DNA of 64,000 nucleotides from Pararhodobacter zhoushanensis (GTDB lineage: Bacteria > Pseudomonadota > Alphaproteobacteria > Rhodobacterales > Rhodobacteraceae): positions 62,001 through 126,000 of the forward strand of contig NZ_JAPDFL010000001.1 in the NCBI RefSeq assembly GCF_025949695.1, in the 5' to 3' direction. Positions 11,384 through 55,326 of this stretch are shown piece after piece. A program made the position numbers and the translations under genes. Every line of letters begins with the position of its first letter. The first letter of the stretch is position 1. The notes below the pieces were generated by a model. It was given only the letters and a program-made list of their open reading frames with translations. It had not been told where the DNA came from and did not search any database.

Positions 11384-11400
11384 GCGCCCGATCCCGGCAC

Positions 11401-11636: not shown

Positions 11637-11639
11637 CCC

Positions 11640-12572: not shown

Positions 12573-12608
12573 GGTATTTTCCTCCCGGAACGTCTGAAAT
12601 TTTCGGGC

Positions 12609-39340: not shown

Positions 39341-39373
39341 AAAAACCCCGCGCCGGGCGGACCGGGCGCGGGG
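39341..39373 (-). terminator. Rho-independent terminator of the 14-gene operon
   Basis: On the minus strand CCCCGCGCC and GGCGCGGGG form a 9-bp stem followed by TTTTT. It starts 19 bases after the stop of the substrate-binding-protein gene and marks the 3' end of the large operon. Confidence 0.85.
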
Positions 39374-39392
39374 TAGCTTTGGTGAGCGTGGA

Positions 39393-40565
39393 TCAGAACG
39401 GTTCGGTCTGCGGCACCCAGACGCCGTTTTCGATCCGGTCGACCGAGACCATTTCGGGCATCGCGTGGTTCTCGACGAAGCTTTGCTCGCTGTAGGTCGT
39501 GAAGTCGTTGTGCGCCGTGGCGCGCGCGCCCTCGACAAAGCTGTCGGTGGTCAGATCTTCACCCGCTGCACGCAGCGAATTCAGGAACCAGTTGGTGTAG
39601 GAATACGCATTCGCCGCGTTCTCGTCCGGCACGGCGTCATAGGCCTCACGGTAGGCCGCGATGAAGGCCTGCGCGTCGGTGTCGGTGGTGTCTTCACCGT
39701 GCAGACGCCAGCCGCCGACGCCGTAAAGCCCCTCGGTATCCGCCCCGCCCAGACGCGCCACCACGGTAGAGCGGCCCGGAATCGCGGTCAGAACCTTGAC
39801 GCCGTCCCAGCCCAGCCGCTTGATTTCGGCCATGACACCGACCGTTTCGCGGGTGATCGTGGCGGCGATGATCGTGTCGACATTGGCCGCGCGCATCCGC
39901 GCCACCTGACTGGAGAAGTCGATGTCGCCGGGGCGATACGCGGCTTCTTCGGTCACGCTCAGCCCTGCGGCGGCCAGCGCCGGGGTGACGCCCGCGCGGA
40001 TCAGGTCACCGAACGGACCCTCCATGTAGATCACGCCGACGCGCTGCGAGCCCCATTCCGGCAGCGCCCAGTTCAGCGCGCGCTCGGTCGTGGTGTTGTA
40101 GTTCTGCACGGTGGTGAACAATAGCGGCGAGCCGCCCGCCACCTGATGCATGATCGCCGACGCGGCCCAAGGCCCGAAGACCACGGTGCCCGCCTCGACC
40201 GCCGCGCCGATGGTCGCGGCGTTGGTGCCCGAGCCGAACGGGTTGAGCAGCGCGAAGACCTCATCCGAGCGGATCAGTTTCTGCACGGCGCGCACGGCCA
40301 GCTGGGGCTGGCTGCCGTTATCCTCGACGATCAGGCGGACCTGACGGCCATGGATGCCGCCCTGTGCATTGGCCTGCGCCAGCGCCAGTTCGGTGGCGTT
40401 GCGCAGCGCGGGCATGCCCGCAGCGGCGGGGCCGGACAGGTCGAGATGGGTGCCGACGACGATCTCACCGGCCGAAACACCGGCGGCGCGCGCCGGGCGC
40501 AGGCTGCCGCCCAAGGCCAGCGCAGCGGCGCTGGTGGCAAGCATCTGACGACGATTCATAGACAT
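39393..40565 (-). CDS. Branched-chain-amino-acid-type ABC transporter periplasmic binding protein
   Basis: A 390-aa solute-binding protein of the HAAT (LivJ) type. The export signal MSMNRRQMLATSAAALALGG carries twin Arg, so Tat export is possible; cleavage is near ARA-AG. The mature protein begins EIVVGTHLDLSGPAAAGMPA and contains GGIHGRQVRLIVEDNGSQPQ and LLNPFGSGTNAATIGAAVEAG, the two-lobe Peripla_BP_6 pattern. GGGAGG precedes the ATG. It is the last gene of the operon, 69 bases after the ligase gene. In this context the ligand may be an aromatic or apocarotenoid acid instead of an amino acid. Confidence 0.92.
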   Translation of the reverse strand: MSMNRRQMLATSAAALALGGSLRPARAAGVSAGEIVVGTHLDLSGPAAAGMPALRNATELALAQANAQGGIHGRQVRLIVEDNGSQPQLAVRAVQKLIRSDEVFALLNPFGSGTNAATIGAAVEAGTVVFGPWAASAIMHQVAGGSPLLFTTVQNYNTTTERALNWALPEWGSQRVGVIYMEGPFGDLIRAGVTPALAAAGLSVTEEAAYRPGDIDFSSQVARMRAANVDTIIAATITRETVGVMAEIKRLGWDGVKVLTAIPGRSTVVARLGGADTEGLYGVGGWRLHGEDTTDTDAQAFIAAYREAYDAVPDENAANAYSYTNWFLNSLRAAGEDLTTDSFVEGARATAHNDFTTYSEQSFVENHAMPEMVSVDRIENGVWVPQTEPF

Positions 40566-40634
40566 GGCGTCCTCCCTTGATGGACATGGCGGGTTGCTGT
40601 GATCACGAACATGCTCCTCCTTCCCCCTGCCGCC

Positions 40635-42470
40635 TCAGGACGGGTACATGCCGTTGATAAGCGTCGCGTATTTCTGCGCGATGACTTTGCGTTTCAGCTT
40701 CATCGTCGGGGTCAGCTCTTCGTCTTCGGCTGTGAGAAGCTGGTCGATGATGCGGAAATTCTTGATCTGCTCGACGCGGGCGAGACGCGGGTTCACCGCC
40801 TCGATCTCGCCGCGGATCAGCTCGACCACGGCGGGCGCGCGGGTCAGGCTGGCGAAATCGGTATAGGGGATCGCCTGATCCTGCGCGAAACGCGCGACGT
40901 GTTCGAGGTCGATCATCACCAACGCGGTGATAAAGCGCTTGCCCTCACCGATGACCACCGCATCGGTGATATAGGGGCTGAACTTGAGCTGGCTTTCGAT
41001 CTGCGTCGGCGTGATGTTCTTGCCGCCGGCGGTGATGATGATGTCCTTGATCCGGTCGCGGATCGCCAGATAGCCCGCCTCGCTGATCTCGCCGCAATCG
41101 CCGGTGTGCAGCCAGCCGTCGGCTGTGACGGTCTCGGCGGTTTTTTCCGGGTTGCGCCAGTAGCCGGCAAAGACGTTGTCGCCCCGGATCAGGATTTCGC
41201 CCGCGTCACCGATGCGGATCTCGGTGCCGCCAGCGGGGGTGCCTGCCCAGCCCAGCCGGATCGCGCCCTTGGGGGTCGAGGCGGCGAAGCCCGCGGTTTC
41301 GGTCATCCCGAAAGCCTCGCGCAGCTCGATGCCGATGGACAGGAACCAGCGGATCAGATCGGGCGGCACCGGGGCCGCGCCGGTCAGCGCGCTGCGGCAG
41401 TTCTGCAGGCCCAGAAAGATGCGGATGTTGCGGAACGCCAGCCGGGTCAGCAGCCGCGTGACCGGCCCCTGCGACGGCGGTTTGCGCCCCTCCAGCTGCG
41501 CCTCGACGCTGGCAGCGCCGCGCGCCAGCGCATGAGCGTAGACCCAGCGTGCGGGGGCGATGGCGTCGCGCAGGAACAGCTCGATCTGGCTGTGCATCTT
41601 TTCCCAAAAGCGCGGCGGGGCGAAGACGACATGCGGCGCGACCTCGCGGATGTCATTGCTGACGGTGCCCGCGTTTTCCGGGAAATGCACGATCAGCCCC
41701 AGCGCAATCGCGTTGAAGACCGAGGCCATGCGCTCGGCGATATGGCACAAAGGCAGAAAGCTCAGCGACTTGTCGCCCGGCTTGGCATCCAGATATTCGG
41801 GTGCCTTGCTCATCTGGAACACGACGTTGCGGTTCGAGATCATCGCCCCCTTGGGCGCGCCCGTGGTGCCCGAGGTATAGACCAGAAACGCCAGATCCTG
41901 CGGGCGGCTGGCGTCGATCGCCTGCTCGAATAGCCCAGCCTGCGTCGCCGCCAACCCCTCACCGCGCTTGACGAAATCGTCGAAGAATTCGACCGCCGGG
42001 TCATCCAGCTTGCGCAGGCCTTCGCGCTCGATCACCAGAATGCGCAGCAGTTGGGGGCAGTCGGCGCGGACCGACAGCGCCTTTTCCAGCTGCTCTTGAT
42101 TTTCCACCACCAGCACCCGGCAGTCCGAGTCCGTCAGGATATAGCGCAGCTGTTCCGGTGCGGCGGTGGGATAGACGCCGTTGCCGACAATCCCCATGCA
42201 TTGCGCGCCCAGATCGGCGAACAGCCATTCCGGGCGGTTCTCGGCCAGCACGGCGATGCACTCGCCCCGCGCCACACCCAGCGCGTTCAGCGCTAGCCCG
42301 AAGGCGCGGGCGCGGGCGTAATACTCGGTCCAGCTGTAACTCTGCCACAGCCCGCGCAGCTTGTGGCGCAGGGCAGGCTGGTCGCCCCATTCGGCAACGC
42401 GGGCGCGGAACACGCGGGCGGGGGTGTCATGGCCGACAAAGCTGACGGGCAGCGGGGTCATCGCGTTCAT
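40635..42470 (-). CDS. AMP-dependent acyl-CoA synthetase (long-chain/FadD15-like)
   Basis: A 611-aa ANL-superfamily ligase activating a carboxylic acid through an acyl-adenylate to its CoA thioester. Motifs are LVYTSGTTGAPKGAMISNRN (P-loop), FLPLCHIAERM, GMTETAGF, WLHTGDCGEISEAGYLAIRDR and the C-terminal Lys-containing GKNITPTQIES. The layout resembles long-chain or bulky-substrate ligases. It starts with a four-base overlap on livF, so activation is linked to uptake. It probably activates the acid produced by the aldehyde dehydrogenase in this operon. Confidence 0.92.
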   Translation of the reverse strand: MNAMTPLPVSFVGHDTPARVFRARVAEWGDQPALRHKLRGLWQSYSWTEYYARARAFGLALNALGVARGECIAVLAENRPEWLFADLGAQCMGIVGNGVYPTAAPEQLRYILTDSDCRVLVVENQEQLEKALSVRADCPQLLRILVIEREGLRKLDDPAVEFFDDFVKRGEGLAATQAGLFEQAIDASRPQDLAFLVYTSGTTGAPKGAMISNRNVVFQMSKAPEYLDAKPGDKSLSFLPLCHIAERMASVFNAIALGLIVHFPENAGTVSNDIREVAPHVVFAPPRFWEKMHSQIELFLRDAIAPARWVYAHALARGAASVEAQLEGRKPPSQGPVTRLLTRLAFRNIRIFLGLQNCRSALTGAAPVPPDLIRWFLSIGIELREAFGMTETAGFAASTPKGAIRLGWAGTPAGGTEIRIGDAGEILIRGDNVFAGYWRNPEKTAETVTADGWLHTGDCGEISEAGYLAIRDRIKDIIITAGGKNITPTQIESQLKFSPYITDAVVIGEGKRFITALVMIDLEHVARFAQDQAIPYTDFASLTRAPAVVELIRGEIEAVNPRLARVEQIKNFRIIDQLLTAEDEELTPTMKLKRKVIAQKYATLINGMYPS

Positions 42471-43243
42471 CTCCAGGTCTTCCTCCGCTTCCAGCGTTGC
42501 GCGGTGCCTGACAGGCCCTCGCCCCCGCCGCCGCCCAGATAGGCCTCGCGCACGTCTTCCTTCTGGCTCAGCGCGGCGCAGGTATCGGCGGCGACGATGC
42601 GCCCCAGCTCCATGATATAGCCGTCATCGCCATGCTTGAGCGCGACGGCGGCGTTCTGTTCGACCACCAGCACGGCGGTGCCGGTCTCATCCCGGATGCG
42701 GCGGATGATGGTGAAGATTTCCTGCGTCAGCATCGGCGACAGGCCGAGGCTGGGTTCATCCAGCATCAACAGCTTGGGCGCGGACAGATAGGCTCGGCCA
42801 ATCGCCACCATCTGCTGCTCGCCGCCCGACAACAGGCCCGCGTGCTGCGCGTCACGCTCTTTCAGGCGCGGAAACCACTGATGGACCCGCTCGATATCGC
42901 GGGCAATCGCGTCGCGGTCGCGGCGGGCGAAAGCGCCCATCATCAGGTTGTCGCGCACCGACAGGAACGGGTAGACCTGCCGCCCCTCAGGAACCAGTAC
43001 CAGCCCGCGCCGGGCGACGGCGTCGGCGTCCAGCCCCTGAACCTCACCCCCCTCAAACAGCACCTTGCCCTTGAACGGATCGACCACCCCGGCCAGCGTA
43101 TTGAGCAACGTTGTCTTGCCCGCGCCATTCGCGCCCAGCACGGCGGTGATGCGCCCCTCGGCCACGGTCAGATTGACGCCCTTCATCGCGGCAATCGGCC
43201 CGTACCATGTTTCCAGATTTTGTACGTCCAAGAGCATGGTCAT
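42467..43243 (-). CDS. livF: ABC transporter ATP-binding protein LivF-type
   Basis: A 258-aa ATPase. Walker A GANGAGKTTLLN, signature LLSGGEQQMVAIGRAYL and Walker B KLLMLDEPSLGLSP are all present. The short C-terminal end and LVPEGRQVYPFLSV are typical of LivF. It overlaps livG and the acyl-CoA ligase gene by four bases each. Confidence 0.95.
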   Translation of the reverse strand: MTMLLDVQNLETWYGPIAAMKGVNLTVAEGRITAVLGANGAGKTTLLNTLAGVVDPFKGKVLFEGGEVQGLDADAVARRGLVLVPEGRQVYPFLSVRDNLMMGAFARRDRDAIARDIERVHQWFPRLKERDAQHAGLLSGGEQQMVAIGRAYLSAPKLLMLDEPSLGLSPMLTQEIFTIIRRIRDETGTAVLVVEQNAAVALKHGDDGYIMELGRIVAADTCAALSQKEDVREAYLGGGGGEGLSGTAQRWKRRKTWR

Positions 43244-44004
43244 GTCCCCAGATAGGCGCTGATGACATCGGGATGCGCCTGCACCTCGGCCGAGGTGCCC
43301 TGCGCCAGCACCCGCCCCTGCGCCATGCAGACCACGCGGTCGGCAACGGCGCTCACCAGCGACATGTCGTGTTCGATCATCACCACGGTGATGCCCAGAT
43401 CGGTGCGGATATCGTCGATCCAGAAGGCCAGATCGCGCGTTTCCTCAGGGTTCAGGCCCGAGGCGGGCTCGTCCAGAAACAGGATCTCGGGCTCGGAACA
43501 CAGCGCGCGGCCCAGTTCGACCACCTTGCGCACGCCGTAGGGCAGGCTGGCCACCCGCGCGTTGCGCCATGCCGACAGATCCAGAAATTCGATCACCGTT
43601 TCGACCTTGGCGCGGTGGTCTTCTTCACGCCGCGTCAGGCCCGGCGTGCGCAGCACCTGCTGCCACCACGCACCGGCCCCAAAGCGGTGACGGCCCAGCA
43701 GCAGGTTGTCCAGAACGCTGGCGGCATCGAACAGCTCGATGTTCTGGAACGTCCGCGCAATGCCCAGATGCGCGATCTTCGAGCGCGGCGCGCGGGCAAT
43801 GTCCTGCCCCTTGAACAGGATGCGGCCTTTGGTGGCCTCGAACACCCGCGTGACCAGATTGAGCATCGAGGTCTTGCCCGCCCCGTTCGGCCCGATCACC
43901 GCCAGCACCTCACCGGCGTTGACGCTGATCGACAGATCCGAGATCGCCGCCAACCCGCCGAAATGCAGCGCCACCTTGTCGAGTTCCAGCAAGGGTCCGG
44001 TCAT
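43240..44004 (-). CDS. livG: ABC transporter ATP-binding protein LivG-type
   Basis: A 254-aa ATPase. Walker A is GPNGAGKTSMLNLVT; LPYGVRKVVELGRAL replaces the usual LSGGQ signature, as is normal for LivG; Walker B is ILFLDEPASGLNPEET. TFQNIELFDAASVLDN is LivG-like. It is coupled to livM and livF by ATGA overlaps. Confidence 0.95.
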   Translation of the reverse strand: MTGPLLELDKVALHFGGLAAISDLSISVNAGEVLAVIGPNGAGKTSMLNLVTRVFEATKGRILFKGQDIARAPRSKIAHLGIARTFQNIELFDAASVLDNLLLGRHRFGAGAWWQQVLRTPGLTRREEDHRAKVETVIEFLDLSAWRNARVASLPYGVRKVVELGRALCSEPEILFLDEPASGLNPEETRDLAFWIDDIRTDLGITVVMIEHDMSLVSAVADRVVCMAQGRVLAQGTSAEVQAHPDVISAYLGT

Positions 44005-45077
44005 CGGCTGCGCTCCGATTTCATATAGGTTTTCTGACGGCGGAAGGTGTCGCGGCGGTAGAGCGGAAAGCTTTCAAACAGTGCGCGCAGCTTGAGCCAG
44101 CGACCGTTCAGCCCCATCGGTTCGAACAGCACGAACAGCGCCAGCACCAGACCGGCGACAAAGATCTCCAGCCCCGATTGCCGCGCCATCGCGTCGGGCA
44201 GCGCGGATTTCAGCAGCGCGACGCCCTTGGGCAGGAAGCTGATCAGCACCGCGCCAAGGATTGCCCCGCGCAGGCTGCCCATGCCGCCGATGACCACCAT
44301 CAGCACCAGATCCAGCGACAACAGCAGGGTGAAAGCGTCGGGCGTGAGGTAGCCGATGTGATGCGCCATCAGCGCGCCCGCCAGCCCGGTGATCCCGGCA
44401 GACAGGCCAAAGGCCCCGACCTTGACGCGCTTGACCTCGATGCCCAGCGCATAGGCCGCTGCCTCGGAATCGCGCACGCCGGTAAAGGCGCGACCAATGC
44501 CTGAGCGCATCAGATTGGCCAGTGCCAGCAGCACCAGAACGGCGATGAACAGGCAGACATAGTAGAAGTATTTCGGCGCCCCGACCGACACGCCAAGGAT
44601 ACGCGGCGTTTCCACCAGCATCCCCATGAACCCGCCGGTCACCCCGCGCCACAGGCCGATGACCTGCTCGACCACGATGGAAAACGCCAGCGTCACCATC
44701 GCCAGATACAGGCCCGACACCCGGATCGCGGGAATGCCCACCACCAGCCCAGCCCCGGCCGAGATCACCCCGGCCAGCGGCAGCGCCAGCACAAACGGCA
44801 CCCCCTGCGCCAGCAGCCACGCATGGGCATAGGCCCCGATGGCGACAAAGCTGGCATGGCCCAGACTGACCTGCCCGGTAAAGCCGGTCAGCGCCATCAG
44901 CCCCATCGCGGCGATGCACAGGATCAGTACATAGCCCAGCTCACCGATCAGATAGGTCGACGCAAACAGCGGCAGCGCCAGCAGAACCACGGCCAGCAAC
45001 CCGTAAGCCAGCCAGTCGGACGGGTGCCGCAGCAGCGCAAAGCCCTGCCGATAGCGTGTATGATAATCGAACCGCAT
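44001..45077 (-). CDS. livM: ABC transporter permease LivM-type
   Basis: A 358-aa polytopic inner-membrane permease with about nine transmembrane helices. The LivM signature ALTGFTGQVSLGHASFVAIGAYA and the later ITGLAGALMAHHIGYLTPDAF, VMVVIGGMGSLRGAILGAVLI are clear. It starts 3 bases after the livH stop and forms the channel with LivH. Confidence 0.95.
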   Translation of the reverse strand: MRFDYHTRYRQGFALLRHPSDWLAYGLLAVVLLALPLFASTYLIGELGYVLILCIAAMGLMALTGFTGQVSLGHASFVAIGAYAHAWLLAQGVPFVLALPLAGVISAGAGLVVGIPAIRVSGLYLAMVTLAFSIVVEQVIGLWRGVTGGFMGMLVETPRILGVSVGAPKYFYYVCLFIAVLVLLALANLMRSGIGRAFTGVRDSEAAAYALGIEVKRVKVGAFGLSAGITGLAGALMAHHIGYLTPDAFTLLLSLDLVLMVVIGGMGSLRGAILGAVLISFLPKGVALLKSALPDAMARQSGLEIFVAGLVLALFVLFEPMGLNGRWLKLRALFESFPLYRRDTFRRQKTYMKSERSR

Positions 45078-45080
45078 CGC

Positions 45081-45965
45081 TCAGACCCTCCGCCCATGTG
45101 CATCGCCCAACAGCCCGTTGGGCTTGAGGATCAACACCGCGATCAGCACCAGATAGGCCGCGATGTCCTTGAAACCGTCGGGCAGATAGACGCCCGCGTA
45201 TTGCTCGATCAGGCCGATCAGCACGCCGCCCAGCACCGCGCCCGGCAGGCTGCCGAAACCGCCCAGCACGATTGCCGCCAGCGCCTTCAATGTGATCAGC
45301 CACAGCGCGGTGTCGACCAGCGTGACCGGAGCCAGAAACATCCCGGCAATCGCCGCCGTCACCCCGGCCAGCGCCCAGACCAGCGAATTCAGCCGCTTGA
45401 CCCGCACGCCGTTCAGATGCGCGGCCAACTGGTTCTGGCTGGAGGCCTGCATCGCCACGCCCAGCCGGGTCTTGCGAAAGAACACCCACAGCAGCGCGGC
45501 GATGACAAAGACCACACCCATGATCACCAGCGACAGGTCGGCGATGGTGACGCCCAGCACCGTGGTCGATTGCCCCGACCACGGCGTGTCATAGCTTTGC
45601 GAATCCGTGCCAAAGCCCATCATCACCAGCCCGCGCAGCATGAAGGCCAGCGCGATGGTCAGCATGACCCCGGCGAATTGCGGCTGCCCGGCGATGCGGC
45701 GCACGATCACGGCGTCGATGCCGTAAGACACCACGCCGATGCCCAGCGCGACGATGGGCAGCACCAGCCAGAAAGGCAGGCCCGCGCCTTCGATCAGCGC
45801 CCAGGCCGAAAAGGCCGACAGCACCAGCAGGTCGCCATGGGCGAAGTTCAGCACCTCGGTTGCCTTGTGGATCAGCACGATCCCCAAGGCAACCAGCGCA
45901 TAGATCGCGCCCACGGCGATGCCGTTGACGGTCAGCTGCGCAAAGAGTTCCAGCGCGCTGCTCAT
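45081..45965 (-). CDS. livH: ABC transporter permease LivH-type
   Basis: A 294-aa permease with about eight transmembrane helices. It has NGIAVGAIYALVALGIVLIH, the ATEVLNFAHGDLLVLSAF loop, and LAAIVLGGFGSLPGAVLGGVLIG. The start MSSALELFAQL overlaps the stop of the tandem HxlR gene by four bases; a longer frame upstream lies inside that gene and is spurious. Confidence 0.95.
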   Translation of the reverse strand: MSSALELFAQLTVNGIAVGAIYALVALGIVLIHKATEVLNFAHGDLLVLSAFSAWALIEGAGLPFWLVLPIVALGIGVVSYGIDAVIVRRIAGQPQFAGVMLTIALAFMLRGLVMMGFGTDSQSYDTPWSGQSTTVLGVTIADLSLVIMGVVFVIAALLWVFFRKTRLGVAMQASSQNQLAAHLNGVRVKRLNSLVWALAGVTAAIAGMFLAPVTLVDTALWLITLKALAAIVLGGFGSLPGAVLGGVLIGLIEQYAGVYLPDGFKDIAAYLVLIAVLILKPNGLLGDAHGRRV

Positions 45966-46897
45966 GCGGTCTCTCCTGTCTCGAAACGCACGTCCCAGGC
46001 CTTGAGCCGGTCGTGGCAATGGCCGCAGGTCGCGCGGGGGATAAAGGCCTTGCCGCAGGCCTTGTGGCGCGGACGGATCGAGCTTTGCTCGTTGAAAAGA
46101 TGCTCGGACGACCACGTGCTGAGCAGCACGATATAGGGGAACAACCCCCGGCTGGCGGCGGTCAGCAGATAGACGCGGCGGCGACCATCCTCGCGGTCGG
46201 GTTCCACCGTCATCAGCCCCGCGTCGATCATCGCGGTCAGGCGGCGGCTGAGCAGCGGCGGGCTGATGCGCAGCACGTGGGCGATCTGGTCGAAGTGCCG
46301 ACAGCCAAGGATCAGCGCCGAAATGATCATCAGCGTCCAGCGGTCCATGCGCAGCGCCAGATTGGCCATCGCGCCGTCATTCACCGTCACCTTGGGCGTG
46401 CGCATCGGCGCTGCCGGGTCATGCGGCAGATGCGGGTTGGGTTTCAGGCCCAGATCCAGATCGCGCAGCGTGACCACTTCGCCGCAGGCCTCGCAGGTCA
46501 TTTGCGGCATGAAGCCATGGCCGCAGGTCTTGTGGACCAGCCGGGTCGGCAGCTCGATGCGGTTTTCCCCGAAACGCTGCTCCCAGTCCCAGGTCATCAA
46601 CGTCGCCTCGTAGATCGCCATGCCCTTGTGGGTCAGGTGATAGGCGAAACGCTCGGGCCGTTCCTGATACAGACGCGGGCGCAGCAGATCCATCTGGACC
46701 ATGGCTTTCAGCCGTTCCGACAGCGTGCGCCGGGGGATGCCCAGCTTGGTCTGGAAATCGTCGAAGCGTTTGACGCCCATGAAGGCGCCCATCAGGATCT
46801 GCATCGTCCAGCGGTCGCCGATCAGCTTGAGCGCATGGCTCAGCGTCGAAGTCAACAGCGCGTCGCGGATCAGATCGAGATCGGGCTGTTGGCTCAT
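45962..46897 (-). CDS. Tandem HxlR-type winged-helix regulator with two zinc-ribbon-like tails
   Basis: A 311-aa protein made of two repeats. Residues about 10-110 are an HxlR winged helix (LKLIGDRWTMQILMGAFMGV, GIPRRTLSERLKAMVQMDLL), followed by HKTCGHGFMPQMTCEACGEV. Residues about 175-265 repeat the winged helix in weaker form (MDRWTLMIISALILGCRHF, ISPPLLSRRLTAMIDAGLM), followed by HKACGKAFIPRATCGHCHDR. Each C-X(9)-C-X2-C cluster could bind a metal. Ordinary HxlR proteins are about 110-150 aa with one domain. It sits inside the operon, coupled at both ends, and is the likely local regulator. The effector is unknown. Confidence 0.85.
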   Translation of the reverse strand: MSQQPDLDLIRDALLTSTLSHALKLIGDRWTMQILMGAFMGVKRFDDFQTKLGIPRRTLSERLKAMVQMDLLRPRLYQERPERFAYHLTHKGMAIYEATLMTWDWEQRFGENRIELPTRLVHKTCGHGFMPQMTCEACGEVVTLRDLDLGLKPNPHLPHDPAAPMRTPKVTVNDGAMANLALRMDRWTLMIISALILGCRHFDQIAHVLRISPPLLSRRLTAMIDAGLMTVEPDREDGRRRVYLLTAASRGLFPYIVLLSTWSSEHLFNEQSSIRPRHKACGKAFIPRATCGHCHDRLKAWDVRFETGETA

Positions 46898-48071
46898 GCG
46901 ATGCGCTCGATGATCAGGGCCGAGGCGAGGCCTGCCGCGCCACAGGCCGCGATCAGCGCGCGCTTTTCGCCTCGGCGTTCCAGCGCGTCCAGCGCGGTGC
47001 CGATCAGCGCGGCCCCGGTCGAGCCCATCGCATGCCCCAGCGCAATCGCGCCGCCGTTAACGTTGAGCCGGTCCAGCGGCACGTCCATATGGCGGGCGAA
47101 ATGCAGGGCGAGGGCGGCGAAGCTTTCGTTGACCTCAAAAAGATCGATGTCGTCAGCGGTGAGACCCGCTTTCGCCAGTGCCGCCTGCGCGGCCTCGACC
47201 GAGCCGGTCAGCGCCAGCACCCGGTCCACCGACAACTCAGCCACCGCGAGAATGCGCGCGCGGGGTTTCAGCCCGGCGCGCTCAGCCGCCGCCGCAGTTC
47301 CCAGCAGCACCGCCGACGCCCCGTCGGCCATCGCCGGCGAGTTGCCCGCGTGGTGAACATGCTCGATCCGGACCAGCCCGGTATGCGCCATGATCGCCGC
47401 ATCCAGCCCGTATTTTTCGCCCATCTCGGCAAAGGCAGGGGCCAGCGCGGCCAGCCCCTCGGCGCTGGTTCCGGCGCGCGGGGTTTCGTCGGCGGTCACC
47501 TCGCCAACCGGCACCAGCGAGGCAAAGGCCCCGCTCTCACGCGCCGCCACCGCCCGGCGCTGGCTTTCCGCCGCGAAGGCGTCGCAGTCGGCGCGGGAAA
47601 ACCCCTCGGCCGTCGCCACAGCATCGGCACTGATGCCAATCGGGATCAGCCCGGCAGCCTTCTGGAAGTCGAAATCATGGGTCAGCGCGCCCTTGTCCGA
47701 GGCCATCGGCACCCGCGACATGCTCTCGACCCCGCCGCCAATCGCCAGCCCGTCCGCCGCCTGCGCGCGCAGCGCGGCCAGCCCGACAGCGGTAATCCCG
47801 CTGGCGCAATAACGGTTGATGGTCAGGCCCGGCACCGCGTCAGGATAGCCCGCCGCGATCAGCCCCAGCTTGCCGATGTTGGCCCCCTGCTCGGCGGTCT
47901 GCGTGACGCAGCCAAAGATCGCATCGGCCAGCGGGTGATGCCCGTGCCGATCAGCCAGCGCCCGCAAGGGCGCGGCCAGCAGATCCACCGGCTTCACGCT
48001 ATGCAGAGCGCCCTTTGCATTCCCCGCCCGCGCGGCGTACGCAGCGCGTCGATGATGACGATTTCGGTCAT
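46894..48071 (-). pseudogene. Acetyl-CoA acyltransferase (thiolase), frameshifted near the N-terminus
   Basis: About 392 aa in the corrected frame. The start MTEIVIIDALRTPRGRG is in one frame and NAKGALHSVKPVDLLAAPL onward in another. One extra C in the CCCC at 48022-48025 (plus strand) joins them exactly. The rest is an intact thiolase: INRYCASGITAVGLAALRAQ (nucleophile Cys), VNESFAALALHF, NVNGGAIALGHAMGSTGAAL and a C-terminal CGAAGLAS in place of the usual CGGGMG. It probably carries out CoA-dependent thiolysis. It is coupled to the HxlR gene downstream. A sequencing error is likely, because its operon neighbours are mostly intact. Confidence 0.85.
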
Positions 48072-48100
48072 CGTGTCCCCCTTCGGTCTGGTCCGGCCTC

Positions 48101-49309
48101 TTACTGGGCCTCGACCACAAAACTCACGACGGTCCCGAAAGAGCCGCCAATATTCAACGTCTGCATCCGCTGCGCGCCTTCGATCTGCAGGTCGCCCGCC
48201 TGCCCCAGCACCTGCCGCGCCGCGTCGCGCAGCATGCGCGTGCCGGTCGCACCGACCGGATGCCCGCAGCCGATCAACCCGCCGGACATGTTCACCGGGC
48301 AGCGCCCGCCATGCTCGATGGTGCCATCCTCGACCGCCTGCCAGCTTTGGCCGGGCGCGGTCAGGCCCAGATGGTCGATGGCGATGTATTCGGTGGTGGT
48401 GAAACAATCGTGCGTCTCAACCCCGCTGACCGCCTCGATCCCGCCAATCCCGGCGCGTTTCCACGCATCCTCGATCGTCTGGCGCACATGCGGGAAGACA
48501 TACGCGCCGCTGCGTTCCAGCTTGTCGCGGAACCGCAGACCTGCGTTGTGATGCCCCCAGCCTGCGATCTTCGCCGCGCGCTTGCCGGTGCGGCGCGACC
48601 ACTCGGCAGCGAAGGCAGGCGAGGCCAGCACCAGCGAGGCCGCGCCATCGGTGATCTGCCCGCAATCCTGCCGACGCGTGCCCGGCTCGATCACCGGATT
48701 GGCGAAGTCGTCATCGGTGAAGCTGAGATCGGTGAATTCCCAGCCGCGCGTCTGCGCCAGCGGGTTCTTTCGGGCATTCGCGTAATTTAGTTCCGCGATG
48801 CGGTTCAGATATTTGCGATCCAGCCCATAGCGCCGGTCATATTCCTGCGCGGCCAGCCCAAACACCGCGGGCCACAGGAATTTGCAGTCGATATCCTCAC
48901 GCCCCAGCCAGCCCGCGGCGTTCTGGTTGACCGAGGCGACATCGCCCTTGGTGTTCTTGAATTCCTCGGCCCCGACCACCAGCACGCAGTCATACCGCCC
49001 CGCCTCGATCTCGGCCATCGCGGTCAGCACGGCCAGCGAGGACGACGCACAAGCCCCCTCATGCCGCATCGCGGGCACGCCCCACAGTTCCGGCACCACC
49101 TGCGCGACCATGGCGCCCAGATGCGCCTGCCCGCGCTGCATCTCGCCGAAGGCATTGCCGACATGGATGCTGGCGATCTGGCCGGCATCGACCTGCGCAT
49201 CTTCCAGCGCATCCAGAACGGATGCGCGGATCATGTCCGACAGATCCAGCCCTTCCCGCGACCAGGCGCGGGCGAAATCGCTTTGCGAACTGCCTAAGAT
49301 ATAGGTCAT
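48101..49309 (-). CDS. SCP-x-type thiolase / acetyl-CoA acetyltransferase
   Basis: A 402-aa thiolase-like protein of the SCP-x group. The nucleophile is in MRHEGACASSSLAVLTAMAE; SGVETHDCFTTTEYIAIDHL and GGLIGCGHPVGATGTRMLRD are the other conserved blocks. The C-terminus IGGSFGTVVSFVVE is SCP-x-like. It differs strongly from the adjacent thiolase, so the two act on different acyl chains or steps. SCP-x thiolases often process branched or cyclic side chains. The ATG fits an ATGA overlap with the frame-corrected NMO gene upstream. Confidence 0.9.
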   Translation of the reverse strand: MTYILGSSQSDFARAWSREGLDLSDMIRASVLDALEDAQVDAGQIASIHVGNAFGEMQRGQAHLGAMVAQVVPELWGVPAMRHEGACASSSLAVLTAMAEIEAGRYDCVLVVGAEEFKNTKGDVASVNQNAAGWLGREDIDCKFLWPAVFGLAAQEYDRRYGLDRKYLNRIAELNYANARKNPLAQTRGWEFTDLSFTDDDFANPVIEPGTRRQDCGQITDGAASLVLASPAFAAEWSRRTGKRAAKIAGWGHHNAGLRFRDKLERSGAYVFPHVRQTIEDAWKRAGIGGIEAVSGVETHDCFTTTEYIAIDHLGLTAPGQSWQAVEDGTIEHGGRCPVNMSGGLIGCGHPVGATGTRMLRDAARQVLGQAGDLQIEGAQRMQTLNIGGSFGTVVSFVVEAQ

Positions 49310-50222
49310 GCCACCCCCGCCCCAGCCGCACCACGGCAGCGTCAAACTCGCCCGCCAGACGCGCGACAATGGCCGCGACCGGCTCGGTTGCCGTCACCGC
49401 GCCCACGCCCTGCCCCGCCGCCCAGACATCCGCCCAGCGCTTGCCCTTGAAGCTCTGATTGCTGTCATAGGCGCGGTTGGGGGCGTCCGGCATGGCGTCA
49501 GGGTCCAGCCCGTTGGCGCGCAAGGACGGCTTCAGCCAGCTGGCGGGCGTGCCGGTGATCCCGGCACTGACCAGCAGATCTTCGATCTGCGCGGCGACCA
49601 CCATGTCCTTGTACGCCTCGGGCGCCATGCTCTCGCTGGCCGCGATGAACGAGGTGCCCATGTAGACGTAATCCGCCCCCGCCGCGACGGCTCCGGCAAC
49701 ACCCCAGCCATCGCTGATGCCGCCGCCGACGATGACGATCCCGTCAAAGAACGACCGCACCGCGCTGACAAAGGCAAAGGGCGACAGCGTGCCGGTATGC
49801 CCGCCCGCGCCGGCACAGATGCAGGCCAGCCCGTCCGCCCCGGCCTCGACCGCCTTGCGCGCCAGCTTCACGGTGGTCACATCGGCGATGACCTTGCCGC
49901 CGTAAGCATGCACCGTCTCGATCGCCGGTTTGGGCGAGCCGAGCGCGGTCACCACGAAGGGCGGCTTGTGCTTGGCGATCATCTCCAGATCCTGCGGCAG
50001 GCGGGCGTTGGTGGAATGCGTCACCAGATTGGCGCACCACGGCGCATCGCCCACTTCGGCGGTGATCCGGGTCATCCAGTCATCCAGCTGCTCTTGCGTG
50101 CGGGCGTTGGGGGTCGGAAACGCACCGACGATCCCCGCCTTGCAGGCCGCGATCACCAGATCAGGGCCCGAGATCAGGAACATCGGCGCGGCAAAGACCG
50201 GCAGGCGCAGGGTATCAGGCAT
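49059..50222 (-). CDS. Nitronate monooxygenase-like FMN protein, C-terminus probably shifted
   Basis: FMN TIM-barrel of the 2-nitropropane dioxygenase/NMO family. It has RLPVFAAPMFLISGPDLVIA, VTALGSPKPAIETVHAYGGK, ICAGAGGHTGTLSPFAFV (catalytic His in AGGHTG) and GIVIVGGGISDGWGVAGAVA with FMN-phosphate-binding AAGADYVYMGTSF. As written it runs to 49059, overlapping the thiolase by 250 bases with Arg-rich junk. One more C in the CCCCC at 49311-49317 gives RLGRGVA and a stop at 49306, with a normal ATGA overlap; true length is then about 305 aa. Family members oxidise nitronates or act as FMN-dependent enoyl reductases. Its role here is unknown. Confidence 0.85.
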   Translation of the reverse strand: MPDTLRLPVFAAPMFLISGPDLVIAACKAGIVGAFPTPNARTQEQLDDWMTRITAEVGDAPWCANLVTHSTNARLPQDLEMIAKHKPPFVVTALGSPKPAIETVHAYGGKVIADVTTVKLARKAVEAGADGLACICAGAGGHTGTLSPFAFVSAVRSFFDGIVIVGGGISDGWGVAGAVAAGADYVYMGTSFIAASESMAPEAYKDMVVAAQIEDLLVSAGITGTPASWLKPSLRANGLDPDAMPDAPNRAYDSNQSFKGKRWADVWAAGQGVGAVTATEPVAAIVARLAGEFDAAVVRLGRGWHDLYLRQFAKRFRPRLVAGRAGSVGHDPRIRSGCAGRCAGRCRPDRQHPCRQCLRRDAARAGASGRHGRAGGAGTVGRARDAA

Positions 50223-51888
50223 CATTCCTCACGGGTCGTCTGGATTGCGTCACGGCAAAGCGCGGGGCGACGAAACCGAGCGTGGTCAGCGTCGCATTGC
50301 CCGCGCCGTTCAGGCCGGTGACGTGGTAATCGCTGTAGGCAGCGGCAAAATTGAGCGGCATCGCACCGGTCAGGTTGATGGTCAGCTGGGCACCGGCCTG
50401 GGCATAGGCATCCTCGGCCCGCGTGATGAAAGCCTCGTCGCGGGCATAGAGGAAACCGGTGATCCCGCCATTGTTGCGGGCGTCCGTGGTGGCTTGGGCC
50501 AGCGCATCCTCAGCACTGTCGCAGTCGATCACAAAGCCAATGGGACCAAAGCGTTCCTCGGCGTAAAGGTCGCGCGCGTCCTTGCCCAGTTGCACCAGCA
50601 GCGGCGTCGCGGTGCGGGCCTTGGGGAAATCGAGGTGCGGATAGGCGCGGCTGTCGAGCAGCACGCGGCCCCGCGACTGGGCCTGTTCGCGCACCCACCC
50701 AATCAGCCCCAGCGTCGGTTCGGCCTGCACGGTGGCAAGGATCATCGACGCCTTGCGCGGGTCTTGCGTCAGGGCGGCGATGGCATCGGCCAGCTTCTGC
50801 GCCACGACGTCGCGCGGCACCGGGCCTGCGGGCGTGTCGATGACCGGCGGCAGATAGACGTTCTGCGGGCTGGTGCACATCTGCGCCGAGAACATGCACA
50901 TCGTGGTGGCCAGCGCGCGGATCGCGGCGTCCAGATCCTCGGCTCCGGCCAGCACGACCGTGTTGCAACCCGAGGTTTCGGTGAACGCCAGCGCCGGGTG
51001 TGCGTTGGCCTCGACCCAGTGCCCAAAGCGCGCCGAGCCGGTGAAATCGACAATCGCGCACGCGGGGTGCTTGATCAGCACCTTGCCCAGGGGCGCGGCG
51101 ACCGTATCCAGACAGAGCGTCACCAGATTGGGATCGAACCCCTGCTCGGCCAGCAGCGCACGAAACACCCGCACGGTCAGCGCCATCGGCAGCACGCTGG
51201 CCGGGTGCGGCTTGAGGATCACCGCGTTGCCGGTGGCGAGGCTGGCCAGCATCGACGGCCAGGCGTTCCACGTCGCAAAGCTGGCGCAGGTGAAGCACAC
51301 CGCCACACCGCGCGGGATCAGGCGGTAGGTTTTCTCCAGCGCGATCTCGGACGGCCCGAACCGCCGCGCCCAGCGCGCGCTGGGGGCCACGGCGCGCATC
51401 GCCTGCTCGGCATAGACCAGCGCCTCGATCCCGCGATCGAGCGCGTTCACGCCGGACCCGGCATAGGCCATGTTATAGCTCTGCCCGGCCGTGTGCATGA
51501 CCGCGTTGACCAGCGTGAACAGATGGTCACGGTAGAGGCGGTCCAGCCCTTCCATCAACAGCATCAGCCGGGTGTCGATATCAGCGGCAGCCCAAGACGG
51601 GATCGCGGCCTTGGCGGCGGCGAACAGCGTATCGGGGTCGGCCTGCGGATAGGTGATGCCCAAGGGCGCTTGGGTGTAGGGCGAGATTTCCTCGCCCACC
51701 CAGCCGGTCACACCCGGCAGATCCAGCGCAAAGGGCTGGCCCAGCAGCGCCTCGAACGCGGCCAGCCCGGCGGGGGCGGCGATATCGGCATCGGGGTAAA
51801 GCTTTGGCATCTCAGGGAAAGGCGACCAGCATTCGCGGCTGGCGCAGGCAGCTTGCGCGCGCTCAAAGGTCTTTGCATGGTCAAACAT
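50215..51888 (-). CDS. paaN: PaaN-type aldehyde dehydrogenase (phenylacetate degradation protein-like)
   Basis: A 557-aa aldehyde dehydrogenase-like protein of the PaaN family, which lacks the MaoC hydratase half of PaaZ. Visible blocks are LIPRGVAVCFTCASFATWNA, LKPHPASVLPMALTVRVFRA, IVDFTGSARFGHWVEANAHP, FTETSGCNTVVLAG (general base Glu) and MCMFSAQMCTSPQNVYLP with the catalytic Cys. The ATG at 51888 has GGAGG upstream and overlaps the lipocalin gene stop by one base; an ATG four codons earlier lacks a spaced ribosome site. It probably oxidises the aldehyde released by the cleavage oxygenases, though PaaN is usually linked to phenylacetyl-CoA ring opening. Confidence 0.88.
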   Translation of the reverse strand: MFDHAKTFERAQAACASRECWSPFPEMPKLYPDADIAAPAGLAAFEALLGQPFALDLPGVTGWVGEEISPYTQAPLGITYPQADPDTLFAAAKAAIPSWAAADIDTRLMLLMEGLDRLYRDHLFTLVNAVMHTAGQSYNMAYAGSGVNALDRGIEALVYAEQAMRAVAPSARWARRFGPSEIALEKTYRLIPRGVAVCFTCASFATWNAWPSMLASLATGNAVILKPHPASVLPMALTVRVFRALLAEQGFDPNLVTLCLDTVAAPLGKVLIKHPACAIVDFTGSARFGHWVEANAHPALAFTETSGCNTVVLAGAEDLDAAIRALATTMCMFSAQMCTSPQNVYLPPVIDTPAGPVPRDVVAQKLADAIAALTQDPRKASMILATVQAEPTLGLIGWVREQAQSRGRVLLDSRAYPHLDFPKARTATPLLVQLGKDARDLYAEERFGPIGFVIDCDSAEDALAQATTDARNNGGITGFLYARDEAFITRAEDAYAQAGAQLTINLTGAMPLNFAAAYSDYHVTGLNGAGNATLTTLGFVAPRFAVTQSRRPVRNDA

Positions 51889-52295
51889 CAGCGCCTCCAC
51901 CGCAGCCGATGATGGCGCGGGCCTTCCTGTGCAGAGAGCGTCAGGCGGTCGCCCTGCAAATCAACGTTGCGGACCTGTTCCGAGCCGACGAAATCGGGGT
52001 TCAGGCTGTGGGTCACCGAATGGATCACCACGGTTTGCCCGTCGCGTTCCTCGATCCGCCACGTCCCGGCGTAGTGAAAATAGCTCTCGAACGCGGCCAG
52101 CCGTTCGGCGTCAGGCGCCTTGCGCGGGTTGCCGGTGCTCCAGCGCGGACGATCCGCCCGTGCGATGCACGCCGCCATCCCACCGTCAGCGGTATAGTGA
52201 ATGAGACCCGTGGCGTCGGGGCCAAAGGGATGGGCAACGCGCCCATCCCCTGACTCGATTTCCCAACCCAGCAGTTTCCACGTTCCTTCCAGCAT
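51888..52295 (-). CDS. Lipocalin-like domain protein
   Basis: A 135-aa single-domain beta-barrel protein of the lipocalin-5-like family. It starts MLEGTWKLLGWEIESGDGRV (the G-X-W motif of lipocalins) and has GLIHYTADGGMAACIARADR and FHYAGTWRIEERDGQTVVIH. No signal peptide, so it is cytoplasmic. The start overlaps the upstream oxygenase stop (ATGA) and its end abuts paaN. Its place between a cleavage oxygenase and an aldehyde dehydrogenase suggests binding of a hydrophobic substrate or product; this is inference. Confidence 0.8.
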   Translation of the reverse strand: MLEGTWKLLGWEIESGDGRVAHPFGPDATGLIHYTADGGMAACIARADRPRWSTGNPRKAPDAERLAAFESYFHYAGTWRIEERDGQTVVIHSVTHSLNPDFVGSEQVRNVDLQGDRLTLSAQEGPRHHRLRWRR

Positions 52296-53779
52296 CACGC
52301 CACCTGCGCCGCGCTCAACTGATCGCCGCGCACCCAGCACGAATGAAACCCGTGCGGCACCCGGTGTTTCAGGATCACCCGCGCGACCGGCCCCTTGGCG
52401 ATGTCGCGCGCATCGGTGACCCAGACCTCGGACCGGTTCGCCAACCCGTTCCACACGAAGCCCACGACATAGCCGTCGTCCTCTTCGGTCGCCCCGTCAC
52501 GCGGCGCGAAGGGTGCCTCGGAAAACCAGTACCCCTCGCCCGGATGATAGGCGAGCGCGGCGCCGGTCTGCAGGTCGTACTTCACCAGCCCGGCGAAATG
52601 CGGCTGTTCCAGCGTGCGCGGGCGGCCCATCAGCACGTTATAGGTGAAGCGGTTCTTGCGGCCCTGAAACGCCGTGTTGATCATCGGGAATTCGGTGTTC
52701 AGGATGTCATCGACCACCCCTTCGCGTGTCATCCCCGTCGTCAGGTTCATGCGCCACTGGTAGAGCTCGTAATCCGTGCCTTGCGTGCCGATGGTGTAGA
52801 GCAGTTTCTGCACATCCAGGCCCCCGTCATAGCCGCGCGGGTTGACGTAAGGCGTGCCCAGCATGACGATCTCGGTCTCGCCCTGTGCGTTCACCTCTTC
52901 CCACGCATTCGCGACGTGCAGCATGTAGCGCGGTTTGAACTCGAACCAGCGGATCTGCTCGGGCGTGCCGTGGCGCGGGATGACGGCGTAGCGGGTCGGC
53001 CAGTCCTGATGGAACTCAAGGCTGTAGCGGCCCCGCTCCAGCGCGGCGGGGGTGTTGATCAGCGGGAAGTCATGCAGGATCGTGTAGTTCTGCGTGATCG
53101 CGCAGTCGTGCGGCAGGCGCGGGCCGGGCAGTTCGACCGGCATGAAGGTTTTCAGCGCACCATCGGCCCCGATCACCCCGTAATGCATATAGGGATGGCG
53201 GTTGCCATAGGCGAAGAACATGAACTCGCCCGTCGCCTCATCCACACGGCTGTGGGCCGAGATTTGCAGGCCCACCAGACGCGGGTCCTGTTCCAGCTTG
53301 CCCAGCGTGATCAGACTGCCGGGATCGACGGTATAAACCGCGCCGCCGCGATACCACATCGAATAGAGCTTGCCGTTGTGGAACTTCACATCGGTGTTGG
53401 AGACGTTCTTCATCGCGTCATCGGGCAGCACGCCCTCGGGCATGCGCTCTTTCAGACCGGGCCACAGGGGTTCACCCGCCGCTTTCTCGGCCTTCAACCC
53501 GTCGGTTTGGACGAACCGGTTGCGATAGGTCGCCTTGCCGCCCTCAAACCGCACGGCATGCAGCATGCCGTCACCGTCGAACCAGTGGTATTTGCCATGC
53601 GGCGCATGCGCGGGCGACGGTCCGTTGCGGACGTAGAGACCGTTGAGATCGCTGGGCAATTCGCCGATGACCTCAAGATCCTGCTCGACGCTTTCCACAT
53701 TGTTGGGCGCGAAGGGCCCGGCCATGCTGGCGTTTGGGACGAACCAGTCCTGCTCGTCGGGGATATGGTTTACACTCAT
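52295..53779 (-). CDS. Carotenoid-cleavage-type oxygenase (lignostilbene dioxygenase family), paralog 1
   Basis: A 494-aa seven-bladed propeller of the RPE65/carotenoid oxygenase family, which cleaves C=C bonds of carotenoids, stilbenes or phenylpropenes to aldehydes with non-haem Fe(II). The four iron His are at about H176 (LQISAHSRVD), H224 (GPRLPHDCAI), H288 (RYMLHVANAWEE) and H479 (HGFHSCW), spaced as in the lignostilbene enzymes. GLYVRNGPSP, HWFDGDGMLHAV and SEAPFAPRDGATEEDDGYVV are family blocks. The start at 53779 has GGAGG seven bases upstream. It is coupled to paralog 2 upstream and to the lipocalin gene downstream. Confidence 0.92.
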   Translation of the reverse strand: MSVNHIPDEQDWFVPNASMAGPFAPNNVESVEQDLEVIGELPSDLNGLYVRNGPSPAHAPHGKYHWFDGDGMLHAVRFEGGKATYRNRFVQTDGLKAEKAAGEPLWPGLKERMPEGVLPDDAMKNVSNTDVKFHNGKLYSMWYRGGAVYTVDPGSLITLGKLEQDPRLVGLQISAHSRVDEATGEFMFFAYGNRHPYMHYGVIGADGALKTFMPVELPGPRLPHDCAITQNYTILHDFPLINTPAALERGRYSLEFHQDWPTRYAVIPRHGTPEQIRWFEFKPRYMLHVANAWEEVNAQGETEIVMLGTPYVNPRGYDGGLDVQKLLYTIGTQGTDYELYQWRMNLTTGMTREGVVDDILNTEFPMINTAFQGRKNRFTYNVLMGRPRTLEQPHFAGLVKYDLQTGAALAYHPGEGYWFSEAPFAPRDGATEEDDGYVVGFVWNGLANRSEVWVTDARDIAKGPVARVILKHRVPHGFHSCWVRGDQLSAAQVA

Positions 53780-53781
53780 GA

Positions 53782-55278
53782 TCATCCTCCCATCGCGGCG
53801 CGGGCCAGAATGCCGCCGTCGCGAAAATCAACGCCGTTGGCCCAGCACGAATGCGTGCCCGAGGCCATCTGATGCGGCAGTTGCACCCGGCAGATCGGCC
53901 CGTCCGAAAAGCGCTTGCAGTCGATCAGCGCGACCTCGGATTTGCCGGTGGTTTCATTGATGATGAAGGTGACCAGATAGCCGTCATCCTCATCCTTTGC
54001 GTTGATCCGCGGCGCAAACGGCGCTTCGCTGGCGAACTGGCCTTCAGGCAGCCGGATCTCCCAGCTTTCGCCGGTGTGCAGATCGGTCTTTAGGTAGCCG
54101 TTGAAGATGAACCAGCCCGGCACCTGCAGCGCGGAATAGGCATAGCGGTAACGCCGACCTGCATACTTCTGGTTGAACATGCCGAATTCCATGATCCGGT
54201 CGTCCAGCCGCTGCTCGGTGGTCTTGCCGGTCTTCAGATCAAAGCGCCAGCGGTGCAGCTTGGTGCCCATCTTGAACTGGTCGAGATAAGACATCATCCG
54301 CTCGTAGCCCGGCAGCGCCCCCTCATAATTGGTGGGCATCGGGTCTTCCTGGAAATACCCGTCCAGCACGATTTCGTCGCCGTCTTCATAGGCGTTGAGG
54401 AAATGCAGCACGAAGGTCGGCTCGGCCTCGAACCACATGATGTCGTCCACGCCACCGCGGCGCGGGATCACCGCAAAGCGCGACGGCTTGTCCTTGAAAA
54501 AGCGCACGACATGCTTGTCCTGTTTCAGCGCCTCAGGATCCCAGTAGAGCGGAAAATCGTTCAGGATCGCGTAGTTCTGCGTATAGGCCATGTCATGCGG
54601 CAGGCGCGGGCCGGGCAGCGGGATCGGCGTGTAATGCACCAGTCGGTCGTTCCGGTCGACCACGCCGTAATGCATGTAGGGCGGCTTTTTCGAGTAGTTG
54701 AAGAACAGAAGTTCGCCGGTCTGCTCATCGACCTTGGTATGGGCCGAAATGCCATCCTCGGGCGACCAGTCGGGCACGCCCGCCTGCGCCAGCGTCAGCG
54801 GGTCCAGCCGGTAGCCTTCACCGCATTGGAAATAGGTCGTCAGCGCCTTGCCCGCGTGGACCACCACGTCCGTGCTGCTGGCATCCTTCATCGCCCCATG
54901 CGCGCCCCAGCCGGGGCGTTTGGACAGGCTGGGAGCCTCCATCAGCCCGGCCCAAAGCCGCTCGCCGCTTTCAATCTCGGCCTGCAAGCCCTTGGTTTCG
55001 ATATATCGGTTGCGATACTGCACCTTGCCATCACGGAAGGCCGCCATGTGGATCATGCCGTCGCCGTCGAACGGGTGATAGCGCGACAGCGCCTGATGCA
55101 GCGGGTTTTGCGTGTTGCGCAGGTAGACCCCGTCGATGTCATCGGGCACCGCACCCTCAAGAACGATTAGGTCATCAGCATTGACCTCTTCATGCAAGGG
55201 CGCCCAGGGGCCTTGCAGATAAGGGTGATCTCCCGGCTCGATGTTGCCGGTAAAGGTCTTGATCACGTCGTGACTCAT
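53782..55278 (-). CDS. Carotenoid-cleavage-type oxygenase (lignostilbene dioxygenase family), paralog 2
   Basis: A 498-aa paralog and the first gene of the operon. The four iron His are at about H180 (DGISAHTKVD), H228 (GPRLPHDMAY), H292 (FVLHFLNAYEDG) and H476 (SGTHSCW). Family blocks are DIDGVYLRNTQNP, HPFDGDGMIHMA and SEAPFAPRINAKDEDDGYLV. It shares the fold and the ligands with paralog 1 but differs at most surface and cavity positions, so a second substrate, a second bond or a heteromer are all possible. GGGGGAG precedes the ATG. A sigma-70-like promoter lies about 50-75 bases upstream. Confidence 0.92.
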   Translation of the reverse strand: MSHDVIKTFTGNIEPGDHPYLQGPWAPLHEEVNADDLIVLEGAVPDDIDGVYLRNTQNPLHQALSRYHPFDGDGMIHMAAFRDGKVQYRNRYIETKGLQAEIESGERLWAGLMEAPSLSKRPGWGAHGAMKDASSTDVVVHAGKALTTYFQCGEGYRLDPLTLAQAGVPDWSPEDGISAHTKVDEQTGELLFFNYSKKPPYMHYGVVDRNDRLVHYTPIPLPGPRLPHDMAYTQNYAILNDFPLYWDPEALKQDKHVVRFFKDKPSRFAVIPRRGGVDDIMWFEAEPTFVLHFLNAYEDGDEIVLDGYFQEDPMPTNYEGALPGYERMMSYLDQFKMGTKLHRWRFDLKTGKTTEQRLDDRIMEFGMFNQKYAGRRYRYAYSALQVPGWFIFNGYLKTDLHTGESWEIRLPEGQFASEAPFAPRINAKDEDDGYLVTFIINETTGKSEVALIDCKRFSDGPICRVQLPHQMASGTHSCWANGVDFRDGGILARAAMGG

Positions 55279-55326
55279 GGTTCTCCCCCACTGCGTCCGC
55301 CGAATTTAGATACCGTTATTGAACTG

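Follow-up and report, generated by a model that had tools for sequence, protein, structure and literature searches.

A conserved fourteen-gene operon of Pararhodobacter zhoushanensis joins two carotenoid-family oxygenases to predicted CoA-level catabolism and a Liv-type importer

Operon layout

The window analysed in this study is a 64,000-nucleotide stretch of Pararhodobacter zhoushanensis DNA, and it contains a cluster of 14 genes that joins two carotenoid-family oxygenases (CCO1 and CCO2) to genes of coenzyme A (CoA) catabolism and of a Liv-type importer. This operon is a real, conserved, and uncharacterised catabolic unit. The original prediction had named 14 minus-strand genes, and 14/14 open reading frames (ORFs) were confirmed in place, all on the minus strand and filling positions 55278–39393 (Table 1). 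The Pfam families agreed with the predicted order: RPE65 (two), Lipocalin_5, Aldedh, NMO, two thiolases, and HxlR (twice in one chain), with BPD_transp_2 (two), ABC_tran (two), AMP-binding, and Peripla_BP_6 in the rest of the operon. Nearly all junctions had been described as short overlaps. This holds for 9 of the 13, which overlap by 1–8 bases (4 bases for livF and the ligase gene), but not for the gaps of 3 bases (LivH–LivM), about 30 bases (SCPx–THI), and 69 bases (ACS–SBP), nor for the NMO–SCPx overlap of 251 bases as assembled.

The predicted sigma-70-like promoter is borne out by comparison of seven upstream regions (the window, four named Pararhodobacter, Rhodobacter sp. NTK016B, and one metagenome-assembled genome (MAG)). 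The TTGACA hexamer is invariant in 7/7 despite differing flanks, parts of the following block are kept, and the −10 hexamer varies. Promoter-like sites over the region (2, against 2.5 expected from shuffles) are not commoner than chance. The predicted strong terminator folds at −36.1 kcal/mol (z −2.85), and 0/200 shuffles were as good; terminator-like sites over the region (13, against 9.3 in shuffles) were judged not commoner. The anatomy supports the prediction that the 14 genes form one transcription unit.

Table 1. Genes and putative signals of the operon in the window.
Feature	Position	Strand	Description
Promoter	55327..55355	-	sigma-70-like, TTGACA-N17-AATCAT
Possible operator	55306..55321	-	conserved block CAATAACGGTATCTAA 3′ of the −10; 1 match in window, 0.23 expected
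CCO1	53782..55278	-	carotenoid-oxygenase-family enzyme, 498 aa, four Fe-ligand His present
CCO2	52295..53785	-	carotenoid-oxygenase-family enzyme, 496 aa, 44% identity with CCO1
Lipocalin	51888..52295	-	lipocalin-fold protein, ~135 aa
ALDH	50215..51888	-	aldehyde dehydrogenase, diverged PaaN_2 branch
NMO	49059..50225	-	NMO/FabK-like flavoprotein; frame passes usual end (~49306) after G-run deletion
SCPx	48101..49309	-	SCP-x-like thiolase, PRK06289 group
THI	46894..48071	-	acetyl-CoA acyltransferase-type thiolase; initial ~15 codons in the wrong frame as assembled (G-run, 48025)
HxlR	45962..46897	-	tandem regulator, two HxlR domains per chain
LivH	45081..45965	-	LivH-type permease
LivM	44001..45077	-	LivM-type permease
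LivG	43240..44004	-	LivG-type ATPase
LivF	42467..43243	-	LivF-type ATPase
ACS	40635..42470	-	acyl-CoA ligase; closest NCBIfam model FadD11, 390 bits (cut-off 950)
SBP	39393..40565	-	periplasmic binding protein, Liv/HAAT type
Terminator	39340..39374	-	intrinsic, hairpin and T-run

The window showed 94.5% DNA identity over 15.4 kb to the P. zhoushanensis comparison sequence, the nearest named genome, and its ALDH was 97% identical. Two uncompensated one-base gaps were found in coding sequence relative to P. zhoushanensis, both in G-runs (49318 and 48025). Because one G fewer is present at 49318, NMO runs 251 bases into SCPx and has 388 codons. Among seven Pararhodobacter-type relatives read, NMO has 306–313 codons and overlaps the start of SCPx by an ATGA in six (L024, L025, L026, L028, L029, and L084), and has 415 codons from an upstream ATG in the seventh (L030); in three betaproteobacterial relatives it has 324–341 codons. 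Because one G fewer is present at 48025, the ATG of THI (48071) does not share the reading frame of the remainder of the gene; L024, L025, and L029 have an in-frame thiolase start. Both deletions look like homopolymer errors in the assembly, which is the likely explanation, or very recent lesions.

Conservation and spread of the gene order

Relatives were collected with the ALDH alone as bait, and the best 80 of the 87 loci found were analysed, many of which stop at contig edges. The gene counts rest on tblastn with a thiolase query that included about 30 out-of-frame N-terminal residues, and genes in relatives were called by a simple script based on GC position, with some false calls on the antisense strand. 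CCO and lipocalin were each found in 70 of the 80 loci, NMO in 63, SCPx in 53, HxlR in 35, THI in 34, at least two CCOs in 28, Liv genes with >50% identity in 26, and ACS in 23. Among the 36 loci that span 21 kb or more, CCO was found in 35, NMO in 34, lipocalin in 32, SCPx in 30, HxlR in 21, THI in 20, and at least two CCOs in 19.

Gene-order conservation had been set beforehand as the refuting test, and the order was found again: CCO1-CCO2-lipocalin-ALDH-NMO-SCPx-THI-HxlR-LivHMGF-ligase is repeated in betaproteobacterial Limnohabitans (L032, L043, L047, L060, and L098) with 49–77% protein identity, in fetched DNA that stops before the binding-protein end. Some Limnohabitans loci have a DUF1295 gene after SCPx. 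Limnohabitans is common in lakes. At E 1e-120, CCO1 was matched in 3 and CCO2 in 2 of 248 sampled family genomes, own genome counted, and within the genus CCO1 was matched at E 0.001 in 9 of 18 genomes. Because the alphaproteobacterial genus and the Comamonadaceae are strongly similar and presence around them is patchy, the sequences indicate an apparent horizontal transfer of the operon between Rhodobacteraceae (Pararhodobacter) and Comamonadaceae. Two MAG contigs labelled Actinomycetota and Singulisphaera (L034 and L055) carry cluster genes 55–75% identical to those of the window and resembling the betaproteobacterial ones; these contigs are short, so misbinning is likely.

Only 15 (Liv, >50% identity) and 14 (ACS) of the 36 long loci carry the uptake genes in the fetched DNA. 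This would suit a mosaic, in which an independent acid-uptake module, made up of the Liv importer, ligase, and binding protein, is co-transcribed by chance with a CCO module of another purpose. We consider such a mosaic improbable, since the uptake genes, where present, keep their order in alpha- and betaproteobacteria and have tight junctions in the window, and other clusters carry a ligase plus an importer of another type.

Related CCO clusters

Looser CCO clusters occur in other alpha-, beta-, and gammaproteobacteria, with CCO, tandem HxlR, NMO, ligase, and thiolase in varying sets. Their importers are of other types: TctC in Comamonadaceae and Cupriavidus, TRAP in Pararhodobacter, and TonB receptors in Litorivivens, Roseateles, and Sphingopyxis. 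A further 33 loci were found with CCO2 (L118–L150; 5 plasmids and 28 genome loci) and, counted by eye, they contain HxlR in 16, thiolase in 18 (one weak), and NMO in 16 (one weak). Short-chain dehydrogenases/reductases (SDRs), a DUF1295 protein, or an enoyl-CoA hydratase (one locus) are present in some related clusters. Their presence weakens the idea that the ligase acts on a preformed 3-oxo acid, which had been raised because neither a hydratase nor a dehydrogenase had at first been noticed in the clusters. A limonene-epoxide-hydrolase/SnoaL-like small protein is annotated near the CCO cluster of L119 and has homologues near those of L138, L143, and L144.

The own genome has a second CCO cluster (L108; contig 2, 170001–190000), which by similarity encodes IclR, a hotdog thioesterase, tandem HxlR, CCO3, an a/b hydrolase, NMO, a ligase, SCPx, and TRAP proteins, with a repC-type replication gene a few kb away. 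This cluster is likely a partner or paralogous pathway. In P. aggregans (L114), a cluster like L108 lies directly upstream of CCO1. An operator common to both clusters was rejected, as the pattern of the possible operator is absent from L108 with up to 2 mismatches allowed.

Carotenoid-family oxygenases

Most bacterial members of the carotenoid-oxygenase family whose catabolic role is known act on lignostilbenes. Both window CCOs belong to superfamily PF03055 by Pfam match and four Fe-binding His. We aligned 147 CCO rows, of which 135 were closer to CCO1/CCO2 and 12 closer to lignostilbene dioxygenase (LSD); the rows are not independent, with many close relatives and few outsiders. The Fe-ligand His were found in 135/135 related rows at three positions and in 133/135 at the fourth (2 gaps). 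FastTree split the 12 LSD-like rows from the 135 at support 1.0, and 129 of the 135, including both window CCOs, formed a clade at local support 1.0 that leaves out L133, L134, L148, L162, L163, and L164. A 133-member group had a support of 0.977.

Residue positions were set on the genome's own LSD, consistent with 5j53 numbering. According to the accessible part of PMC8191317, Tyr101 and Lys134 of LSD bind the 4-hydroxyl of the substrate. CCO1 has Leu/Phe and CCO2 Leu/Tyr at these positions. The two residues occur together in 0/135 related rows (Tyr101 alone in one, two rows gapped at 101), where position 134 is Tyr in 113 and position 101 is Leu/Ile/Val in 125. They occur together in only 3 of the 12 LSD-like rows, namely the own LSD twice (different ends) and the S. 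bisphenolicum plasmid enzyme. Because the other nine are without it, the pair marks true LSDs and not the whole LSD-like side.

The LSD NCBIfam models matched CCO1 and CCO2 at 180–228 bits against cut-offs of 650–800; NF053778 (cut-off 800) gave 206.6 and 227.9 bits. A true LSD is encoded elsewhere in the own genome (L110, C1:764197–765633) and reached 846.7 bits with this model. ABC-ATPase-like genes (26–27% to LivG) lie a few kb from it. The best NCBIfam score of both CCOs was that of NF052295 (8′-apo-carotenoid 13,14-cleaving dioxygenase), with 218.1 and 242.9 bits, under the cut-off of 675. The three best NF052295 matches among 142 class genomes (L162–L164) scored 383–403 bits, none above the cut-off, and all lie outside the 129-member clade.

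Lignostilbene-type catabolism, in which CCO1 and CCO2 would be LSDs that cleave phenolic stilbenes to benzaldehydes, draws on the shared superfamily and on the LSD model matches, and the residue test has the caveat that nine LSD-like rows fail it too. We judge it very improbable, and CCO1 and CCO2 were rejected as LSDs on their low scores, the missing pair, and the separate clade. The substrates first proposed were a stilbenoid, phenylpropenoid, or apocarotenoid. A phenolic stilbenoid is not supported, because both CCOs are without the Tyr/Lys pair and score far under the LSD cut-offs, while apocarotenoid and non-phenolic aryl-alkenyl acids remain candidates.

Aldehyde dehydrogenase and other proteins

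The original prediction called the ALDH PaaN-type, and the family is right, but the enzyme belongs to a diverged branch and the own genome holds a separate PaaZ. The window ALDH scored 538 bits with PaaN_2 (TIGR02288), under the cut-off of 578.75, and three complete orthologues from CCO clusters scored 592 (L041), 610 (L074), and 574 bits (L092). In L102 (Polaromonas sp. P2-4, 10032–13028), ALDH and CCO lie in one 999-aa open frame, by fusion or frameshift, and the ALDH read in this frame scored 430 bits over part of the model.

Of 359 phylum genomes, 12 gave a match at E 1e-100. Nine of these matches score 689–903 bits with PaaN_2, and CCO was found in 0/9 within the fetched 9.9–18 kb (three cut at contig ends). 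A Liv importer adjoins the PaaN_2 gene in four of the nine, and the three annotated loci among them carry paa-type ligase and thioesterase genes. The remaining matches are those of the window, G748, and G932; all three sit in CCO clusters, and G748 and G932 exceed the PaaN_2 cut-off. No further paa-type gene was found among the 14 genes. For the CCO-associated branch, 'phenylacetic acid degradation protein PaaN' is probably a misannotation.

The lipocalin-fold protein is an eight-stranded barrel near solved lipocalin-family proteins, and for the alternative that it is a phenolic acid decarboxylase, no such enzyme was among the matches listed (50 of 921 Foldseek matches, and a further 50 rows). 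SCPx passed NF004936 (PRK06289) with 564.5 bits against a cut-off of 375, and its catalytic Cys motif was read by eye. SCP-x thiolases often act on 2-methyl-branched 3-oxoacyl-CoA, and a terpenoid chain would therefore suit the operon. The importer has the full HAAT/Liv set of two permeases, two ATPases, and a Peripla_BP_6 protein, the last matching amino-acid and other HAAT proteins alike at 25–68 bits.

Proposed pathway

Uptake plus CoA-level catabolism, as originally predicted, is supported. The term 'complete pathway' was too strong, because the transporter and ligase vary between related clusters and hydratase or dehydrogenase steps, if needed, would lie elsewhere. We think it moderately probable that the 14 genes are one regulated, horizontally spread catabolic unit that imports, CoA-activates, and CCO-cleaves a conjugated, probably non-phenolic acid, with PaaN-type oxidation and thiolysis.

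Beyond the observed anatomy, conservation, clade, and residue results, we infer the substrate class, the step order, and the role of each enzyme as follows. The Liv/HAAT importer would bring in a conjugated carboxylic acid that is hydrophobic and most likely lacks a 4-hydroxyphenyl group. Candidates are apocarotenoid acids, other terpenoid acids, and non-phenolic aryl-alkenoic acids, and the ligase would form the CoA ester of the imported acid. CCO1 and CCO2, of their distinct clade, may then cleave C=C bonds to give aldehydes, and the lipocalin-fold protein probably has a binding role, for either the hydrophobic substrate or the aldehyde. The relatives of the ALDH oxidise CoA-linked aldehydes in phenylacetate breakdown, and the PaaN_2-derived ALDH would oxidise the aldehyde, perhaps with CoA on the other end. 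The NMO/FabK-like flavoprotein may reduce or oxidise the conjugated bond, the two thiolases would release short acyl-CoAs, and the tandem HxlR protein would control the single promoter.

Several points weigh against this proposal. The importer type is not constant in related clusters (TctC, TRAP, TonB, MFS, or porin genes), and in the DNA fetched for 7 of the 33 loci L118–L150 a CCO stands without any partner. As assembled, THI has an out-of-frame start. Action of the ALDH on CoA-linked aldehydes follows family logic and may perhaps not hold here, and substrate identity, expression, and enzyme roles are predicted from sequence. The plasmid cluster of Sphingopyxis granuli encodes a VanA-like (VanA_C) Rieske oxygenase, and therefore an aromatic substrate is indicated there.

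The last point leads to an aromatic route, in which a lignin- or phenylpropanoid-derived aryl-alkenyl compound other than a 4-hydroxystilbene (with a methoxylated or blocked ring) is CCO-cleaved to aryl aldehydes. The PaaN-type ALDH and Liv importer resemble those of phenylacetate clusters, the Sphingopyxis cluster also holds an SDR and an ALDH closest to HpaE, and the true LSD elsewhere in the own genome suggests that the organism meets stilbenes. We regard this route as possible but rather unlikely, since the phenol-binding Tyr and Lys are missing from the CCOs, no ring-cleaving dioxygenase or demethylase is among the 14 genes, and a CCO-adjacent Rieske gene was seen in a single related cluster, with a 27% match about 8 kb from the CCO in L119.

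Returning to the import and cleavage of a non-phenolic acid, we tentatively propose a bolder version, which we hold to be unlikely as it stands. This would be a widespread undescribed pathway in which polyene or terpenoid acids are activated with CoA and then cut by the CCO clade, and the CoA-linked semialdehyde is oxidised, ahead of thiolysis, by a PaaN_2 branch that was taken over from phenylacetate ring-opening. If this is true, bacteria of lakes, seas, and soils would regularly draw carbon from apocarotenoid-like acids.

Synteny links a separate CCO clade with CoA catabolism across alpha-, beta-, and gammaproteobacteria. Identifying its substrate would name a carbon flow now masked by 'carotenoid oxygenase' and 'PaaN' annotation, and would correct the PaaN label for the branch that lies beside CCO genes and not paa genes. 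The operon also offers a short testable enzyme set for cleaving conjugated double bonds.

Comparison with known systems

The original prediction knew of no named pathway with this gene set, and targeted searches of the open-licence literature found no such cluster; the papers listed dealt with the degradation of steroids, hydrocarbons, and other compounds, and by title and opening of the abstract none was considered relevant. The isoflavone (ifc) cluster of Variovorax V35 (PMC11069340, as far as its accessible text goes) likewise belongs to a member of the Comamonadaceae and serves the catabolism of a conjugated compound from plants. The same text names hydroxylase and cupin proteins, and the words carotenoid, thiolase, nitronate, and aldehyde dehydrogenase are absent from the main text. 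On this gene content, the ifc cluster was set aside as the same system.

Phenylacetate (paa) clusters share a PaaN_2-family ALDH, Liv importer, CoA ligase, and thiolase with the window operon, which differs in having CCOs and no paa-type ligase, thioesterase, hydratase, or reductase among its 14 genes. The 8′-apo-carotenoid 13,14-cleaving dioxygenase is the best-scoring model for the window CCOs, yet they remain far below its cut-off. LSD catabolism in Sphingobium SYK-6, as described in the accessible part of PMC8191317, is alike in the carotenoid-oxygenase fold, the four Fe-binding His, and the expected aldehyde products. The window CCOs differ from it in being without Tyr101/Lys134 and in belonging to another clade, and the window operon adds a CoA ligase, thiolases, and an importer.

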